Shown: one piece after another, positions 1,690 through 17,807 of the stretch
Numbering within the stretch: the first letter of the stretch is position 1
Layout of the letters: each line of letters begins with the position of its first letter
From: a virus
Length of the DNA: 21,747 bases
Strand: one strand, 5' to 3'
IMG/VR virus record: IMGVR_UViG_3300050138_000366
Location: 1 to 21,747 of that record
Notes under the pieces: generated by a model
The model's database searches: none
Seen by the model: only the letters and a program-made list of their open reading frames with translations
What the model was told of the DNA's origin: nothing
Position numbers and translations under genes: made by a program

Positions 1690-3225
1690 ATGGCCGCCCC
1701 ATCATTATCAATGCAGGTAAACGGACTTCTCCAGGTTTCAGGAGATAACTTTAATACCTATGTGCAAACCGCCGATTCGGTAGCCCAGCTTGCTGCCTTT
1801 GTCGGGGCTGTTGGGATGGGGGTTTACCTGAAGGGGTTTACTACCCCCGGTGATGGTGGGCAGGGAAATTTTTACTGGAACTCTACGGGCACCGGTCCGA
1901 ATGATGGAGGAGTAACGAACATAGTTCCCAGCGGATCGACGGTCGGCTGCTGGACACGCATCCTCGCAACGGGGATAGGTAATGGCACAGTGACCAGCCT
2001 ATCGGTGGTCACGGCAAACGGTGTATCGGGTACGGTTGCTAACCCCACCACCATTCCTGCAATAACCTTAGTGCTTGGAGCCATTACTCCGTCATCGGTT
2101 ACGGCATCGGGTGCTGTTTCCGGGTCGAATTTAATGGGAACCAATACTGGCGATCAAACCATTACCCTGACCGGTCAGGTTACGGGGGCGGGGACCGGAT
2201 CTTTTGCGACAACCCTTGCATCGAACACGGTAACAAGTGCCAATTTCAGGCAAAGTGCAGCCCATTCGGTTGTTGGCAATGCGACAAACGCAACTGGAAA
2301 TGTTACCGATATTAGCGGAACGGCCAATCAAGTCCTTACCGTAAACGCCGCCGGTAACACAGTGGCCTTTCAGAATACCCTTCTCACAATGGGTGTTGTA
2401 ACCGATTCCGGGTCAACATCTTACGGGAATATAATTACCTATAACGCCGGTCCCTACACGCTATCAAATAACACGAGCATTAATAATTGGACTGGTTTCG
2501 AAGCGCAAATGCCAGTTGCCTCTGGGAGTGCTAATTTAGGATTATCCGTAGGATTTAAGGCTATTGGGCATTCTCTGAGTGGAAATACTAGCGCGACCGC
2601 TGGCATTGGGACGTGGGTAACTCCAGCTTCATTCTCTGGAAATGCCAGTATAAGTAATTATTACGGAATACAATTATCTGCCACTTCCGTTAGCAGTGCT
2701 ACCGTCTCCTTTGGCAGCGATTATAAATCGCTTGCCACCATGGTCAGTCTGTCGAACGGTGCCGTAGTAACTAATTCTTATGGATATCAAGTTACGATGC
2801 CAACTCTTGCTGGCACATCAGTCCTGTCCAATGCTTACGGGGTTAGGGTTGATTCGCCGACAGTTCCCGGAACGGCTACCTTAACCAGTGCTTACGGACT
2901 GTATATTGATAATATGGGTGCTGCCGGTATAGCGACATCGAAAGCCATAAATATCCAAGCGCAATCCGGGTCCACCACAAATTGGGATTTGTTTATTGCC
3001 GATGGGTTTTATGTTAAATCAGATGGCACCGTAACGCATGGCAATGCAGCTCTAGTGACGACTGCGACAACCGGACTGCTATGGTTGGAATCATGTCCAG
3101 GTGCTCCTACAGGCGCGGCAGCTGCTCCCTATACTTTAGCCGCTGCCATGGTGTATGACTCTACGAACAACAAAATTTATGTGCGTTGTAATGGAACTTG
3201 GCGCTCAACAGCGGCATTAACATAA
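1690..3225 (+). CDS. Tail fibre-like protein, paralogue of the 3394-4425 product
   Basis: A 511-residue protein. Residues 1-~95 form a head that recurs in the gene at 3394 (QVNGLLQVSGDN, GDGGQG-x-FYWN, DGGVT, GCWTRI). This resembles the N-terminal virion-attachment segment of phage tail spikes and fibres. The middle has the NTGDQTITLTGQVTGAGTG-type tail-fibre motif. The C-terminal half has about four loosely repeated units ending in (A/S)YG-(L/V/Y)-x-(I/V/L), probably a repetitive beta fibre, and it ends with KIYVRCNGTWRSTAAL, a compact cap-like sequence. The ATG at 1690 is supported by alignment with the start of the paralogue, although its ribosome site is weak. Likely role: receptor binding or a side fibre. 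No depolymerase catalytic residues could be identified. Confidence 0.8.
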   Translation: MAAPSLSMQVNGLLQVSGDNFNTYVQTADSVAQLAAFVGAVGMGVYLKGFTTPGDGGQGNFYWNSTGTGPNDGGVTNIVPSGSTVGCWTRILATGIGNGTVTSLSVVTANGVSGTVANPTTIPAITLVLGAITPSSVTASGAVSGSNLMGTNTGDQTITLTGQVTGAGTGSFATTLASNTVTSANFRQSAAHSVVGNATNATGNVTDISGTANQVLTVNAAGNTVAFQNTLLTMGVVTDSGSTSYGNIITYNAGPYTLSNNTSINNWTGFEAQMPVASGSANLGLSVGFKAIGHSLSGNTSATAGIGTWVTPASFSGNASISNYYGIQLSATSVSSATVSFGSDYKSLATMVSLSNGAVVTNSYGYQVTMPTLAGTSVLSNAYGVRVDSPTVPGTATLTSAYGLYIDNMGAAGIATSKAINIQAQSGSTTNWDLFIADGFYVKSDGTVTHGNAALVTTATTGLLWLESCPGAPTGAAAAPYTLAAAMVYDSTNNKIYVRCNGTWRSTAALT

Positions 3226-3235
3226 TGGAGAAAAT

Positions 3236-3397
3236 ATGACACGATTGATTGAAGACAGCATTCTGGTTCCCCTAATAAATTATTTAGCCACTCGACCCTA
3301 TACCGAGGTCTATCAGGTTTTGCCTATTTTGCAGAAATTGCCTGAATTGCAAGAAAAGCCAATCATGGCGGATAAGCTAGAGGAAGTGACTCCGTGA
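3236..3397 (+). CDS. Small 53-aa protein between the two tail-fibre genes
   Basis: Starts at an ATG 10 nt after the upstream fibre stop, with a GGAG ribosome site at 3227-3230. The protein begins MTRLIEDSILVPLINYLATR and ends in a charged tail. Its stop shares the GTGA overlap with the GTG start of the next fibre gene, so translation of the two is probably coupled. Composition suggests a short amphipathic helical protein (LPILQKLPELQEK). I do not recognise a family. The position suggests an accessory or chaperone-like role for the fibre, which is inference only. Confidence 0.7.
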   Translation: MTRLIEDSILVPLINYLATRPYTEVYQVLPILQKLPELQEKPIMADKLEEVTP

Positions 3398-4425
3398 CAG
3401 CACCGGCTCTAGCGGTACAGCAAAATGGGTTATTGCAGGTTAGCGGCGATAACTACAATACTTATGAGCAGAGCTGCAATGTGGTTGCTGATCTTAAGGG
3501 GTTTATCGGTGTCTCTGGCGTGCAGGTTTATATGCGCGGGTATACCGCTGTTGGCGATGGCGGGCAAGGGCAGTTCTATTGGAATGCGGGTGCGGTAAGT
3601 CCTGTTGATGATGGCGGAGTAACCACCATAGTCCCGAATGGGGCTGCATCGGGATGCTGGACCAGAATTATTGACGCTGTATCGTCTAGTTTACCGGTGG
3701 CGGCTGACGGCAGGAATATACTGGTTTCTGATTTGACCAACACCACGGCAGCGGCAACTTACGATCAGTTCGTTGTAAAGGCCAGCCTGACCGGGAAAGC
3801 CTATTTACTCTCTTCCGGAAATATTACGTTCAACGGCGCAACGACAGGCGCGGGCGGCATGGATACCGGCGCATTGCCTACCAGTGGGTTTGTTTATCTT
3901 TACGTTATCTATAACCCCACCACGTCTATTGCCAGCGTCATAGGAACCACCCTGTCCAGTAACACGATATATAGCAGCAGTCATATGCCTGCCGGGTATA
4001 CCGCCAATGCCTTGATTGGTGTGCTTCTGACCGATGGATCGGCTCATCTCCTCGGAACCCAACAATACGGAAGAGAAGTGTTCTTAGGATCGGCAGTCAG
4101 TATATTTACCAATGCAACAAACGTTAGCGCCCTTACCTCCCAAAGCGTGGCGGCTGCCGTTCCTTCCATAGCAAAGATGTGCAGCGGGTTCTTGACGGTT
4201 GCCCTGGTCGGTAGCGTAACCAACGTTGCTAACGTTGCTGGCAATGCCAGCGGTTTTGGGCAGCAGACAGGCCCCATGTTAACCAGTTCAACGGTCACAA
4301 ATTTAACAAGTCAAACTTGTAATTTCCGTAATTTACCCATTGTTACGGCCCAAGCAATTTACTGGAATACAGGCAATACAGGCGGTTCTACCAATTCCAT
4401 GGGCATAACTAGCTTTACCTTTTAA
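3394..4425 (+). CDS. Tail fibre-like protein, second paralogue
   Basis: A 343-residue protein that begins at a GTG inside the stop of the previous gene (GTGA overlap). Residues 1-~95 copy the head of the 1690-3225 product (QQNGLLQVSGDN, YTAVGDGGQGQFYWN, DDGGVTTIVPNG, GCWTRI), while the remainder is unrelated to that protein. The middle contains a region of the type LLSSGNITFNGATTGAGGMD-TG-LPTSGFVYLYVIYNP, seen in various phage fibre C-terminal halves, followed by a Thr/Asn/Ser-rich beta segment. Same head with a different body suggests that both attach to the same virion site and carry different ligand-binding parts. The last gene of the structural block. Confidence 0.8.
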   Translation: MTAPALAVQQNGLLQVSGDNYNTYEQSCNVVADLKGFIGVSGVQVYMRGYTAVGDGGQGQFYWNAGAVSPVDDGGVTTIVPNGAASGCWTRIIDAVSSSLPVAADGRNILVSDLTNTTAAATYDQFVVKASLTGKAYLLSSGNITFNGATTGAGGMDTGALPTSGFVYLYVIYNPTTSIASVIGTTLSSNTIYSSSHMPAGYTANALIGVLLTDGSAHLLGTQQYGREVFLGSAVSIFTNATNVSALTSQSVAAAVPSIAKMCSGFLTVALVGSVTNVANVAGNASGFGQQTGPMLTSSTVTNLTSQTCNFRNLPIVTAQAIYWNTGNTGGSTNSMGITSFTF

Positions 4426-4459
4426 TACCGTATAGATACCTTAGAACCGAAAGAATACG

Positions 4460-4651
4460 ATGAATGTTCAAGATAGATTAACTGAGCTTGAAAGAGAAAT
4501 AGACGAGTTAAAAAAATGGAAAGCAAGCTGCAACATGCTCATGGCAGGGTGGGGCGGAATTTGCATGGCGGTGTTGACTGCCGGTGGTTTTATAACCGAA
4601 TATTATCAAAATATTAAATCATATCTAATGGCCCTATGGACAGCGAAATGA
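4460..4651 (+). CDS. XhlA-like coiled-coil plus membrane protein (holin-associated)
   Basis: A 63-residue protein. Residues 1-~24 are a charged heptad-like coiled coil (DRLTELEREIDELKKWK). A single hydrophobic segment at about 27-47 follows, then a short polar tail. This layout matches the XhlA/hemolysin-type small phage membrane proteins that work with holin and endolysin. Being two genes upstream of the M15 endolysin supports a lysis role. The ribosome site is poor (AAAGAA upstream). Its stop codon lies inside the first copy of a 24-bp tandem duplication that also carries the next start. Family assignment is by architecture, not by sequence match. Confidence 0.65.
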   Translation: MNVQDRLTELEREIDELKKWKASCNMLMAGWGGICMAVLTAGGFITEYYQNIKSYLMALWTAK

Positions 4652-4679
4652 TTAACCCTATGGACAGCGAAATGATTAA
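4632..4679 (+). repeat. Perfect 24-bp tandem duplication at a gene junction
   Basis: Two adjacent identical 24-base copies (4632-4655 and 4656-4679), each CCCTATGGACAGCG followed by AAATGATTAA. The first copy contains the stop codon of the upstream gene and a potential start of the downstream gene. The second copy supplies a second in-frame start (ATG at 4660) and adds eight residues (MDSEMINP) to the N-terminus. Confidence 0.9.
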
Positions 4680-4824
4680 AATGATAATGGCATTGGAGCT
4701 TATATTTTTCTTTATCGCGGGGGCGCAAATTTCCCAGCACAGGATTAATTGTATCAGAAATGAAGCTCAGGCGGTTTTCTATCTCTCCCTCTCCCCGGAG
4801 GCGCTTAGTCAGATTAGAATATGA
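4636..4824 (+). CDS. Small one-TM protein of the lysis cassette
   Basis: Up to 62 residues. One hydrophobic stretch (MIMALELIFFFIAGAQIS, about residues 16-33) precedes a polar C-terminal part. The start is uncertain: ATGs at 4636, 4660 and 4681 are all in frame, none with a good ribosome site. The first two come from the 24-bp duplication, so the 4681 start is the one that does not depend on it. It ends in an ATGA overlap with the endolysin gene, implying translational coupling. It could be a holin, antiholin or inner-membrane spanin subunit, but no family is recognised. Confidence 0.6.
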   Translation: MDSEMINPMDSEMIKMIMALELIFFFIAGAQISQHRINCIRNEAQAVFYLSLSPEALSQIRI

Positions 4825-5210
4825 CGGATAGCGATGTAAATCATCTCGACCCTATTCTCCTGAAAATATACCGGGAATGGCTTATTGAATGCTATTCTGT
4901 ACCACTCGCAACTAAGGCCATTGTCACATGGCGCTCTTCTGTAGATCAAAATCTAGCCAAGGCCAAACATCTAAGCAATGCCGCTGCTGGACAGTCCCCG
5001 CATAATTATGTTGATGCCCAAGGGAATCCAGCCAGTCGTGCTTTTGACTTTGCAATATTTGATGATGACGGCAAATATATTACCGATGGAACCGATCCGC
5101 GATACAGGCAGGCGGGCGAAATAGGCAAGAAAATGGGGCTAGTTTATGGCGGCGATTGGCAAAAGCCCGATTGGGATCACCTGGAATTGGCTAACTGGAA
5201 AACATCTTGA
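4821..5210 (+). CDS. Endolysin, M15-family L,D-type metallopeptidase
   Basis: A 129-residue zinc peptidase of the M15 (VanY / phage L-alanyl-D-glutamate peptidase) type, predicted to cut peptidoglycan stem peptides at lysis. The zinc ligands are visible as the S-x-H motif at 59-61 (SPH), the SRAFDFAI segment at 72-79 (D76), and the DWDHLEL segment at 117-123 (H120, with D118 as candidate catalytic acid). The full length of about 130 residues is normal for the single-domain phage endolysins of this family, and no signal peptide or cell-wall-binding domain is present, so it would depend on a holin. It overlaps the previous gene by ATGA and is followed 31 nt later by a two-TM holin candidate. 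Confidence 0.88.
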   Translation: MTDSDVNHLDPILLKIYREWLIECYSVPLATKAIVTWRSSVDQNLAKAKHLSNAAAGQSPHNYVDAQGNPASRAFDFAIFDDDGKYITDGTDPRYRQAGEIGKKMGLVYGGDWQKPDWDHLELANWKTS

Positions 5211-5441: not shown

Positions 5442-5960
5442 ATGCATGAACAGCCCATACGCATTACGCTCGACTTTTCACATGAACTTAAACACTTTTT
5501 AAAGGAATTATTTATGGCTAAAGACATTTCAGATCGCGTTGATGACATTGCAACTACAGTCAATACGATCAATGCCAATTTAAAAACCCTTATCGCTACC
5601 GGTGTTAAGGTTGACCTAACCCCGGTTACTAATAGCCTTGTCACCATTCAGGATACGGTTAACATTATTCGCGGTGATGTTGAACCTGCCGATCAGGTGC
5701 CGCATGTAACTGGTATTTCCCCGACCAGTGGCTCGGTCAATGGTGGAGAAACCATCACCGTTACCGGCAATAACTTTACCAAGGCCAGCACCGTAGGCGT
5801 TATGTTCGGCACCGTTCCGGGCACCAACCTTGTGGTTGTCAGCGATAGTTCGCTGACCATTACCTCACCTGCTCAGGCTGCCGCTGTGGTTGATGTTACC
5901 GTGGTTGATGCCGCCGGTAGTTCTGCAATTAGTGCTGCTGACCAGTATACGCTCGCCTAA
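5442..5960 (+). CDS. IPT/TIG-domain protein
   Basis: A 172-residue protein (148 if it starts at 5514). After an N-terminal helical part (DRVDDIATTVNTINANLKTL), residues ~88-172 form an Ig-like IPT/TIG domain: the pattern VTGISPTSGSVNGGETITVTGNNF, then a beta-rich stretch ending near VDVTVVDAAG, is characteristic. Such domains decorate phage capsids or tails and bind surfaces. The start is ambiguous: 5442 follows the previous stop by 14 nt but lacks a ribosome site, whereas 5514 has AAAGGA at 5501-5506. The N-terminal extension looks like real protein, so the longer form is listed. A strong terminator follows the stop. Confidence 0.8.
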   Translation: MHEQPIRITLDFSHELKHFLKELFMAKDISDRVDDIATTVNTINANLKTLIATGVKVDLTPVTNSLVTIQDTVNIIRGDVEPADQVPHVTGISPTSGSVNGGETITVTGNNFTKASTVGVMFGTVPGTNLVVVSDSSLTITSPAQAAAVVDVTVVDAAGSSAISAADQYTLA

Positions 5961-16517: not shown

Positions 16518-16787
16518 TTATGCCGCTTCGTAAGTCATCTCGAAAATATCTGGTTTGCATGGGTAAATCTCACCCTTTACGCCACAGATAACGTAATCGC
16601 CGCTCTCAGCTCGCATAATGCCCTCAAGGGTTTTTATATCAGCATGACCGCCTACAGGAGGCTTCCCGCCCTCAAGGTGCAAGATAACGTCACCGTAAGA
16701 AACTCGGTTCATAAACCAGTCAGGTATATGATCGTGGCCTAGCTTGAAGGCTTCAATAACTACTGGCTTTTTACGATAGTTTGGCAT
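16518..16787 (-). CDS. Conserved-type phage protein with KPVVIEA / YPCKPDIF motifs (89 aa)
   Basis: The ribosome site TAGGGGG sits directly against the ATG at 16793 but six bases before the ATG at 16787, so the second is the real start (MPNYRKKPVVIEAFKL). The protein ends with the hallmark segment GDYVICGVKGEIYPCKPDIF-(E)-x-TYE, which recurs in small phage proteins of unknown function. The middle, HADIKTLEGIMRAESGDYVI, is typical too. No catalytic motif. It is the gene just downstream (on the minus strand) of a tRNA-like element. Confidence 0.75.
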   Translation of the reverse strand: MPNYRKKPVVIEAFKLGHDHIPDWFMNRVSYGDVILHLEGGKPPVGGHADIKTLEGIMRAESGDYVICGVKGEIYPCKPDIFEMTYEAA

Positions 16788-16850
16788 TGGCATCCCCCTA
16801 AGTGGACTGATGGTTATTACGGTTACTCAAACTCGGTTTCAGTGTTTAGT

Positions 16851-16919
16851 GTGACGGGGGCAATGGACTCGAACCATTACTCCTTCGGATTGCTAGCTTG
16901 CTACCTAGTCCCCCGTCAC
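16851..16919 (-). other. tRNA-like structure (acceptor stem and T-arm, no recognisable anticodon arm)
   Basis: On the minus strand a perfect 10-bp inverted repeat (GTGACGGGGG at one end, CCCCCGTCAC at the other) encloses AATGG-TTCGAGT-CCATT, a textbook T-arm placed one base before the 3' acceptor-like strand. A GGTAGC D-loop-like motif follows the 5' strand. The interior is only ~28 bases between the 5' strand and the T-arm, too short for a normal D-arm plus anticodon arm, and I could find no 5-bp stem with a 7-base loop. It may be a decayed tRNA, a tRNA mimic or an att-type relic. Confidence 0.5.
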
Positions 16920-16994: not shown

Positions 16995-17213
16995 TCAGTT
17001 TGCTATATCTTCGTATCTCGGTTCTTTTGCCTTGTCGTCCACCACTGGCCTGATCTTCAAAGCCCGCAGCACCGTATTACCTGGCGTTGCTTCCCCGCGC
17101 ACGATCTTATATACATGCCCGTATGCCAGCCCCTTCTTTTCCGCCCACTTCTTTATGCTCCCCGCTTTGAAGCCTAAATCCGATATGCGTTGTCTAACTT
17201 CAATCAATGTCAT
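16995..17213 (-). CDS. Small HTH transcription regulator (repressor/Cro-like, 72 aa)
   Basis: MTLIEVRQRISDLGFKAGSI..., where residues ~19-52 form a helix-turn-helix: AEKKGLAYGHVYKIVRGEATPG gives the recognition helix region, followed by NTVLRALKI. A short charged tail follows. No C-terminal oligomerisation domain, so it is Cro-sized. It has its own sigma-70-like promoter with no ribosome site (predicted leaderless), and GATTACC-type repeats flank the -35, suggesting auto-control. It faces no divergent gene and transcription runs with its neighbours. Confidence 0.75.
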   Translation of the reverse strand: MTLIEVRQRISDLGFKAGSIKKWAEKKGLAYGHVYKIVRGEATPGNTVLRALKIRPVVDDKAKEPRYEDIAN

Positions 17214-17219
17214 AAAAGC

Positions 17220-17248
17220 ACTATAGGGTAATCAAAAGCAATGGTCAA
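17220..17248 (-). promoter_or_regulatory. Promoter of the HTH regulator, leaderless
   Basis: On the minus strand: TTGACC (17248-17243), 17-nt spacer, TATAGT (17225-17220). The ATG at 17213 begins 7 nt after the -10, so transcription should start on or next to the start codon. No Shine-Dalgarno is visible, in line with a leaderless mRNA. The hexamers are the same pair as in the promoter at 5989-6018. Confidence 0.75.
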
Positions 17249-17279: not shown

Positions 17280-17807
17280 TTACTCGCTCGTGGCTAGATC
17301 GTTTAGCAAAGCAAATTCCCCAAAGTGTGCAATGGCTGCTTTGTTGTAAGCCTCTGCCGCTTTTATCTCATCAGAGAAAAGCCCGATGTGATGGGATTTA
17401 TTATTTATCTTCATTTGAACAGTAAATTTATTATTGTTCTTATCCCAACACACGCCTTTATATTTGCTGCTCGTCGGCCTACCAAATATCTGAACAGTTT
17501 TTCTAGCGTTGCCTCTATTTTGACTGCGTGTGGCAAGCCGCAGGTTGCATTTGCGATTATCCAGACCATCACCGTTGATATGGTCAATTAGAAATCCAGC
17601 AGGAACATCCCCAAAAATGAAGTTGTGCATACAAAGAAGTCTTTGGCGCTTCTTCCCTGGTTGCCACTGGCTCTTCCCGGCATAAAATTTGCTGTACCCT
17701 TTATAAGCATACCATTTATGGGCGGATACTTTTTCAAAGTCCTCAGCATCAATGATGGCGTACATACCTCTAGTTAGCGTTATACGGCTCGTCAGGTCGT
17801 TGGTCAT
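17280..17807 (-). CDS. HNH endonuclease with AP2 DNA-binding domain
   Basis: 175 residues. HNH motif: MHNFIFG (H61), LIDHINGDGLDNRKCNLR (D75/H76, N84, N88), then AP2 domain at about 115-168 (SKYKGVCWDKNNNKFTVQM, then HIGLFSDEIKAAEAYNKAA). This is the typical layout of phage free-standing HNH homing-type endonucleases. It would nick or cut DNA at a site recognised by AP2. It overlaps the upstream 95-aa gene by ATGA. No intron is evident next to it. Confidence 0.9.
   Translation of the reverse strand: MTNDLTSRITLTRGMYAIIDAEDFEKVSAHKWYAYKGYSKFYAGKSQWQPGKKRQRLLCMHNFIFGDVPAGFLIDHINGDGLDNRKCNLRLATRSQNRGNARKTVQIFGRPTSSKYKGVCWDKNNNKFTVQMKINNKSHHIGLFSDEIKAAEAYNKAAIAHFGEFALLNDLATSE

Follow-up and report, generated by a model that had tools for sequence, protein, structure and literature searches.

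The window, which is the whole stretch of DNA analysed here (21,747 nucleotides, virus record IMGVR_UViG_3300050138_000366), is probably a fragment. It carries a block of helicase, Cas4-like exonuclease, SSB-like and AAA genes together with a DUF3987 primase-like gene, the exonuclease and the SSB having been named through homology and position. The tRNA-like element lies at a gene junction on the same strand as its flanking genes, the features of which are collected in Table 1. The gene before it, which ends 75 nt from the element, encodes a small protein whose helix-turn-helix (HTH) profile matches were weak and consistent. The structure of this protein was modeled confidently as four helices (pLDDT 91), and its top Foldseek neighbors were XRE-type controllers, none of which was significant (best E 0.34). 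The gene after the element belongs to a family that is widespread in phages. The HNH/AP2 protein encoded further upstream resembles a free-standing homing endonuclease. ORFs of at least 20 aa that overlap the element were only 21 to 26 aa long, so that the placement given by the first-pass annotation, outside any coding sequence and between the HTH gene and the next gene, was confirmed.

Table 1. Coordinates of the features at the window locus and of tRNA-like elements in transposable phages
Record	Feature	Coordinates	Strand	Basis
Window	91-aa phage protein, PHROG 419/4502, next gene downstream of element	16518..16793	-	homology/PHROG
Window	whole tRNA-like element, 5' end at 16919	16851..16919	-	sequence read, folding, dinucleotide simulation
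Window	acceptor-like 10-bp stem, 3' strand CCCCCGTCAC, no encoded CCA	16851..16860	-	sequence read; inverted repeat
Window	single G that parts T-stem from acceptor strand and can lengthen the T-stem	16861..16861	-	sequence read, folding
Window	T-arm AATGG-TTCGAGT-CCATT, box GGTTCGAGTCC	16862..16878	-	sequence read, pattern, simulation
Window	3-bp hairpin TCC-GAA-GGA at anticodon-arm place	16881..16889	-	sequence read, folding
Window	D-like arm CTAG-GTAGCAAG-CTAG, alternatively CTA/TAG with GGTA-containing loop	16893..16908	-	sequence read, folding
Window	acceptor-like 10-bp stem, 5' strand GTGACGGGGG	16910..16919	-	sequence read; inverted repeat I4, 100%
Window	72-aa helix-turn-helix protein, upstream of element	16995..17213	-	PHROG HTH family E=1.4e-4; 4-helix model
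Window	promoter-like TTGACC-17-TATAGT directly before HTH gene	17220..17248	-	consensus match only; scan yield no higher than shuffles
Window	HNH endonuclease with AP2 domain, adjoins HTH gene upstream	17280-17807	-	HNH_3 + AP2 profiles
L103	tRNA-like element	2440-2497
L103	MuA-like transposase ORF	2530-4614
L167	tRNA-like element	2451-2516
L167	MuA-like transposase ORF	2538-4520
L211 (Porphyromonas phage BK068090)	tRNA-like element	2768-2888
L211 (Porphyromonas phage BK068090)	MuA-like transposase ORF	2903-4951
L205	tRNA-like element, after Gam-like ORF (Mu Gam-like gene)	271-213	-
L391 (BK010646.1)	p00 element; also in L392, L399, L400	1763-1854

Read directly on the minus strand from 16919 to 16851, the element is GTGACGGGGGACTAGGTAGCAAGCTAGCAATCCGAAGGAGTAATGGTTCGAGTCCATTGCCCCCGTCAC, and its layout is GTGACGGGGG-A-CTAG.GTAGCAAG.CTAG-CAA-TCC.GAA.GGA-GT-AATGG.TTCGAGT.CCATT-G-CCCCCGTCAC. 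The perfect pairing of the 10-bp outer stem, claimed at first pass, was borne out by both the direct read and the inverted-repeat search. The T-arm likewise held, with all five pairs of the T-stem formed and a complete box in its TTCGAGT loop (GGTTCGANTCC), which fits the tRNA consensus fully; the stem can be extended to 7 bp (GUAAUGG/CCAUUGC, one G-U). The GGTAGC motif was read in the D-like loop as described. The scarcity of room for D and anticodon arms stood in part: about 30 bases are left for the two and no 7-nt anticodon loop is present, but a 4-bp D-like arm (CTAG/CTAG) does exist. Sequence reading and folding placed no 5-bp/7-nt anticodon arm in the element; a 3-bp hairpin closing a GAA triloop was all they gave. 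Two further refinements were made to the earlier description, namely, that the element runs on the minus strand, as the neighboring genes do, and that a single G parts the T-stem from the acceptor strand, unlike in a normal tRNA.

The structure is far beyond chance. In 165 Mb of sequence simulated with the dinucleotides of the window, a TTCRA T-arm with five Watson-Crick pairs and a closing Watson-Crick stem at an allowed distance was seen once with a 7-bp stem and never with one of 8, 9, or 10 bp, corresponding to a chance expectation of <3e-4 per window. The folding energy gave z = -4.1 for the minus strand and -2.9 for the plus strand. The cloverleaf (-28.4 kcal/mol) was not the minimum-energy fold, a rod being calculated at -29.3 kcal/mol, and the pairing probability of the T-stem was about 0.4. 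Docking of the D-loop to the T-loop, which is ignored by the folding program, would favor the cloverleaf. Since the T-box, the D-like loop, and the stem together exceed chance, tRNA ancestry was accepted, and a tRNA origin of the element is well supported. The same evidence makes it very unlikely that the locus is a DNA site, either an operator or a replication or transposition site, whose tRNA look is coincidental. The 10-bp palindromic arms do adjoin a regulator gene, as such a site might, but a gap of 49 nt between the arms is unusual for an HTH operator, and the T-box, T-stem, D-like loop, and spacing are jointly far beyond coincidence.

The identity of the element was compared with the defining features of a tRNA. 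The 5-bp T-arm with a TTCRANN loop is present. In place of a 7-bp acceptor joined directly to the T-stem and ending in N-CCA or with room for CCA, the element has a 10-bp stem, the extra G, and no CCA, and in place of a 5-bp anticodon arm with a 7-nt loop, it has TCC-GAA-GGA. ARAGORN reported zero tRNAs in the window, and Rfam gave no match at gathering. The covariance search suggested at first pass was negative, as the Rfam tRNA model was silent up to E=10 in a 351-base search around the element and to E=3 over the whole window. The curated models of tRNA-like RNAs (tmRNA, Y-RNA-like, and others) did not match either, the only return being a snoRNA match of 19 bits, well under its cut-off; snoRNA and miRNA identities were rejected because Rfam matches to them at permissive thresholds were only chance level. 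Because ARAGORN and Rfam find none, the T-arm is the sole defining test by which the element could pass for a working tRNA. We conclude that it is tRNA derived and non-decoding and that it is unable to act as an ordinary tRNA. It may represent a tRNA put to a new use, as opposed to mere debris.

One account of such an element is a neutral tRNA pseudogene, a once-working phage tRNA that lost its anticodon arm and some of its D-arm through deletion, with the remainder drifting. The degenerate D-arm, the extra G, the lack of CCA, and the absence of an Rfam score are all consistent with this account, and tRNAs are common in phages. The top tRNA match, the 3' half of tRNA-Asn, also points this way, though it is within chance, being reached in 13 of 100 shuffles in which the T core was kept; assignment of a parent isotype by alignment was dropped as no better than chance. 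A BLAST search against phages returned nothing that covers the element, the partial matches being ordinary tRNA-Asn and low-scoring Lactococcus pieces. Set against this are the perfect 10-bp stem and T-arm. The stem in particular has three pairs beyond those of a tRNA acceptor, which is not expected from decay. A neutral pseudogene is considered a serious possibility, though somewhat on the improbable side.

The first-pass annotation had listed a decayed tRNA, a tRNA mimic, and an old attachment site as origins. While the tRNA origin is well supported, the last of these found no support. In that reading, the T-arm/acceptor half would be a relic of an integration site, copied in attP from the 3' end of a host tRNA. 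In its favor, 3' halves of tRNAs often serve as att cores and are a main source of the tRNA fragments present in genomes of prokaryotes (PMC9897764). The host-tRNA check of the 3' part came out negative: a search of 84,980 species genomes of bacteria and archaea, among which the true host may be absent, gave no exact match to the 21-mer of the T-arm and acceptor strand (GGTTCGAGTCCATTGCCCCCG). The 19-mer obtained by leaving off the end of GGTTCGAGTCCATTGCCCCCG had no exact match in IMG/VR and a single match, with one mismatch, across 398 Pseudomonadota genomes. The identity of the 3' part with a host tRNA gene that marks an attachment site was thus not found. Furthermore, the 5' acceptor strand is intact, although an att core could do without it. 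The Pfam and PHROG searches, which covered part of the ORFs of a window that is itself a fragment, recognized no integrase. The attachment-site reading is weak, and a relic of this kind is highly improbable.

Relatives of the window phage were sought through its proteins. Single-protein searches gave no close relative in the collections searched, and neither primase nor helicase as a single query had relatives in IMG/VR. A helicase alignment search returned 80 IMG/VR loci, the best of which, L213, matched at 50% identity. L213 has a 77-aa HTH-like ORF with its end at 5813; 5 nt on, at 5819, begins an element of the tRNA family. This element scores 43 bits with Rfam, its anticodon arm is broken by mismatches and a 9-nt loop, and its tail is an encoded CCG rather than CCA. 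The ORF and this lone degenerate tRNA are positioned upstream of the same p154-AAA-SSB-Cas4-helicase order as in the window. Since the structure model of the 77-aa ORF is of low confidence (pLDDT 65), its HTH label rests on weak profile matches and sequence reading. The two HTH proteins do not align, and the two elements have little in common beyond the T-box. The search for the same element in related phages, suggested at first pass, was answered in part, no homologous element having been found in a close relative while this more distant phage has a damaged lone tRNA. A tRNA above the cut-off was found in 4 of 50 records of the helicase-related group, and because tRNAs are so rare in it, two lone, anticodon-damaged tRNA-likes behind small regulators are suggestive; two cases are no proof. 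That the L213 tRNA is also damaged likewise speaks for a neutral pseudogene.

In two more phages that have this replication block, a standard tRNA-Met (CAT) whose CCA is encoded lies elsewhere (L246:14212-14288 and L272:17999-18075, both on the minus strand). Among the best 80 of 402 relatives of the 91-aa protein, no short-form element was found at the same place. Four phages that share this protein with the window contain tRNA-like arrays (L041:9027-10052, L040:9462-9854, L026:1741-2981, and L050:7522-7950) in which the acceptor and T-arm are intact and the middles are abnormal. The array elements mostly end in N-CTA(G/C) or similar, not CCA, and those of L040 and L041 are parted by GACAGCTGGAAAGACAGCA-like hairpins.

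A gapped pattern with a short distance from GGTAGC to the T-box matched at least 119 stretches in viral contigs, a count to be read with the fact that the patterns used partly select for short anticodon regions and that some matches are ordinary tRNAs with GGTAGC inside the anticodon stem. Among the matches listed, the anticodon arm is missing while acceptor, D, and T are kept in L103 and L205, and a hairpin with a 3- to 4-nt loop takes the anticodon place in L087, L112, L123, L126, L132, L140, L167, and L189. The elements of L103, L140, L167, and L205 are the sole tRNA-family matches of their own records. The Rfam tRNA model scores the elements of L087, L103, L167, and L205, as it does that of L213, but not the element of the window. 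The same pattern gave two matches in the 398 Pseudomonadota genomes, both resembling ordinary long-variable-arm tRNAs. The recurrence in other phages of a T-arm and acceptor without a decoding arm argues against a one-off.

Other tRNA-like genes were noted in the course of these searches. The anticodon arm is abnormal in all four tRNA-like elements of the 4.3-kb viral contig L087 (1944-620, minus strand); the first of them has ACC-GAA-GGT where the window has TCC-GAA-GGA. Diverged tRNA-like genes in five contigs (L104:6134 on the minus strand, L111:1192, L121:about 2880, L137:about 2980, and L153:about 10970) have in common a D-loop that carries a small extra hairpin, TGTAA-[GGGAATGAATACC]-GGTAGC. 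A test of decay based on breakage of the anticodon arm versus the T-arm was dropped, as false positives dominated the T-arm-broken class (shuffled sequence gave 106).

Pursuit of the pattern matches led to transposable (Mu-like) phages of Bacteroidota. In L103, L167, and L211, the element ends no more than about 35 nt before the start of the MuA-like transposase ORF; in the Porphyromonas record L211, it is unannotated. Across five Porphyromonas phages, the acceptor, D, and T arms are constant nearly letter for letter, while the element exists as two alleles, one of 69 nt (reduced) and one of 119 nt with an inserted structured arm, which group L211 and L395 versus L393, L394, and L396. Bacteroides phage p00 (hankyphage) and its relatives have an 82-nt tRNA-like element in 17 records, located about 450 nt upstream of MuA and directly before a small gene (an ArsR-type regulator in some annotations). 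It also occurs as two alleles, in which the anticodon arm is swapped for a longer stem with either a 6-nt loop or a GCAA tetraloop and which differ by one exchange of A-U to G-C and further compatible changes. Over the Porphyromonas and Bacteroides phages, at least one pair change is compensatory. The 82-nt element is annotated as tRNA-Arg in some records and not at all in others. In an Elizabethkingia phage, the T-arm is kept just before MuA and the full acceptor stem is absent, and two other Mu-like records had no such element. Since most of the elements came from tRNA-like sequence searches, of which MuA adjacency was not a part, their frequency is not inferable. A body that is kept while the decoding arm is free to change is not what simple decay predicts, and the recurrence of solitary, non-decoding tRNA-likes with conserved bodies favors a retained tRNA-like body over simple decay; for the window element itself, neutral decay is still nearly as probable as a function.

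The reading that we favor tentatively, at a little short of an even chance, is that the window element is a functional, non-decoding tRNA-like RNA of the minus strand that serves in transcript processing or as a 3'-end element. Its transcript would come off the minus strand and would probably also include the HTH gene that precedes it. The parts by which a tRNA body is recognized (acceptor-like stem, T-arm, and GG D-like loop) would have been kept and the codon-reading part lost. The HTH message might then be split from the downstream genes by tRNA-maturing nucleases (RNase P or RNase Z type) or by the stable fold on its own; alternatively, the fold or the processing might protect the end of the HTH message. 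RNase P and EF-Tu measure a 12-bp acceptor/T stack. Because the stack of the element, at 15 to 16 bp, speaks against textbook RNase P cleavage, the stem may just as well shield the end of the transcript, or the cleavage site may be a modified one. Counting against a functional reading are the lack of a homologous element in a close relative, the lack of CCA, and a cloverleaf that is not the minimum-energy fold. The broader proposal, possible though rather doubtful, is that several unrelated phage lineages have a selected class of non-decoding tRNA-like RNAs, with the anticodon arm deleted or replaced and the acceptor/D/T body maintained, that these act in processing or regulation where early genes meet, following small HTH regulators and preceding MuA transposase, and that the window element is a reduced member of the class.

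The kept acceptor and T-arm are also what would be needed by a decoy, an RNA that occupies host defense nucleases or other enzymes that bind the acceptor/T-arm and that is devoid of the anticodon loop cut by many defense nucleases. By analogy, the idea may be called reasonable, given that phage tRNAs are reported to counter tRNA-cutting defenses (PMC10264068, PMC11555353) and that Cas12a3 engages the acceptor stem, T-arm, and CCA tail (PMC12851939). The CCA tail is absent here, the stem is over-long, and no such decoy was found in the literature searched; a decoy is deemed improbable.

The usual explanations of phage tRNAs are codon supply and the replacement of cleaved host tRNAs, and a non-decoding body would need another one. 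It raises the questions of whether the host tRNA-processing machinery cuts phage messages at look-alikes or whether the RNA occupies tRNA-acting enzymes. Gene finders either miss such elements, as in the window, or give them a doubtful isotype, as with the tRNA-Arg of the Bacteroides phages. Non-decoding tRNA-like RNAs are already known from the Bacillus cereus pseudo-tRNA (PMC3399842) and tRNA gene fragments (PMC9897764). The word "phage" is absent from a review of non-canonical tRNAs (PMC7609411), and word matches, with incomplete coverage of the literature, found no paper that describes tRNA-like elements lacking an anticodon as a phage class. If selection were proven, the broader phage class would be more than one further non-decoding tRNA-like RNA.

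Compared with known systems, the element resembles canonical phage tRNA genes in its acceptor-like stem, TTCRA T-arm, GG D-like loop, intergenic position, and strand shared with the genes, and it differs from them in having no 5-bp/7-nt anticodon arm, no CCA, an extra G, a 10-bp stem, and no ARAGORN or Rfam call. The tRNA gene fragments arising from mobile-element integration (PMC9897764) similarly place a tRNA 3' half near mobile-element genes, whereas the element has both acceptor strands and no matching host tRNA or integrase was found. The B. cereus tRNAOther (PMC3399842) is likewise a tRNA-like RNA outside translation that is linked to acquired DNA, but it belongs to another organism, and the window element has no anticodon arm and is known from sequence alone. 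Phage tRNAs with altered anticodon loops (PMC10264068) also diverge in the anticodon region; these are described as usable and nuclease resistant, while the window element cannot decode. The elements of L087, L103, L132, L167, L205, and the Porphyromonas Mu-like phages differ from it in their 7-bp acceptor, mostly normal D-arm, and other genomic neighbors, and they share with it a kept acceptor, D, and T with the anticodon arm missing or replaced by a tiny hairpin.
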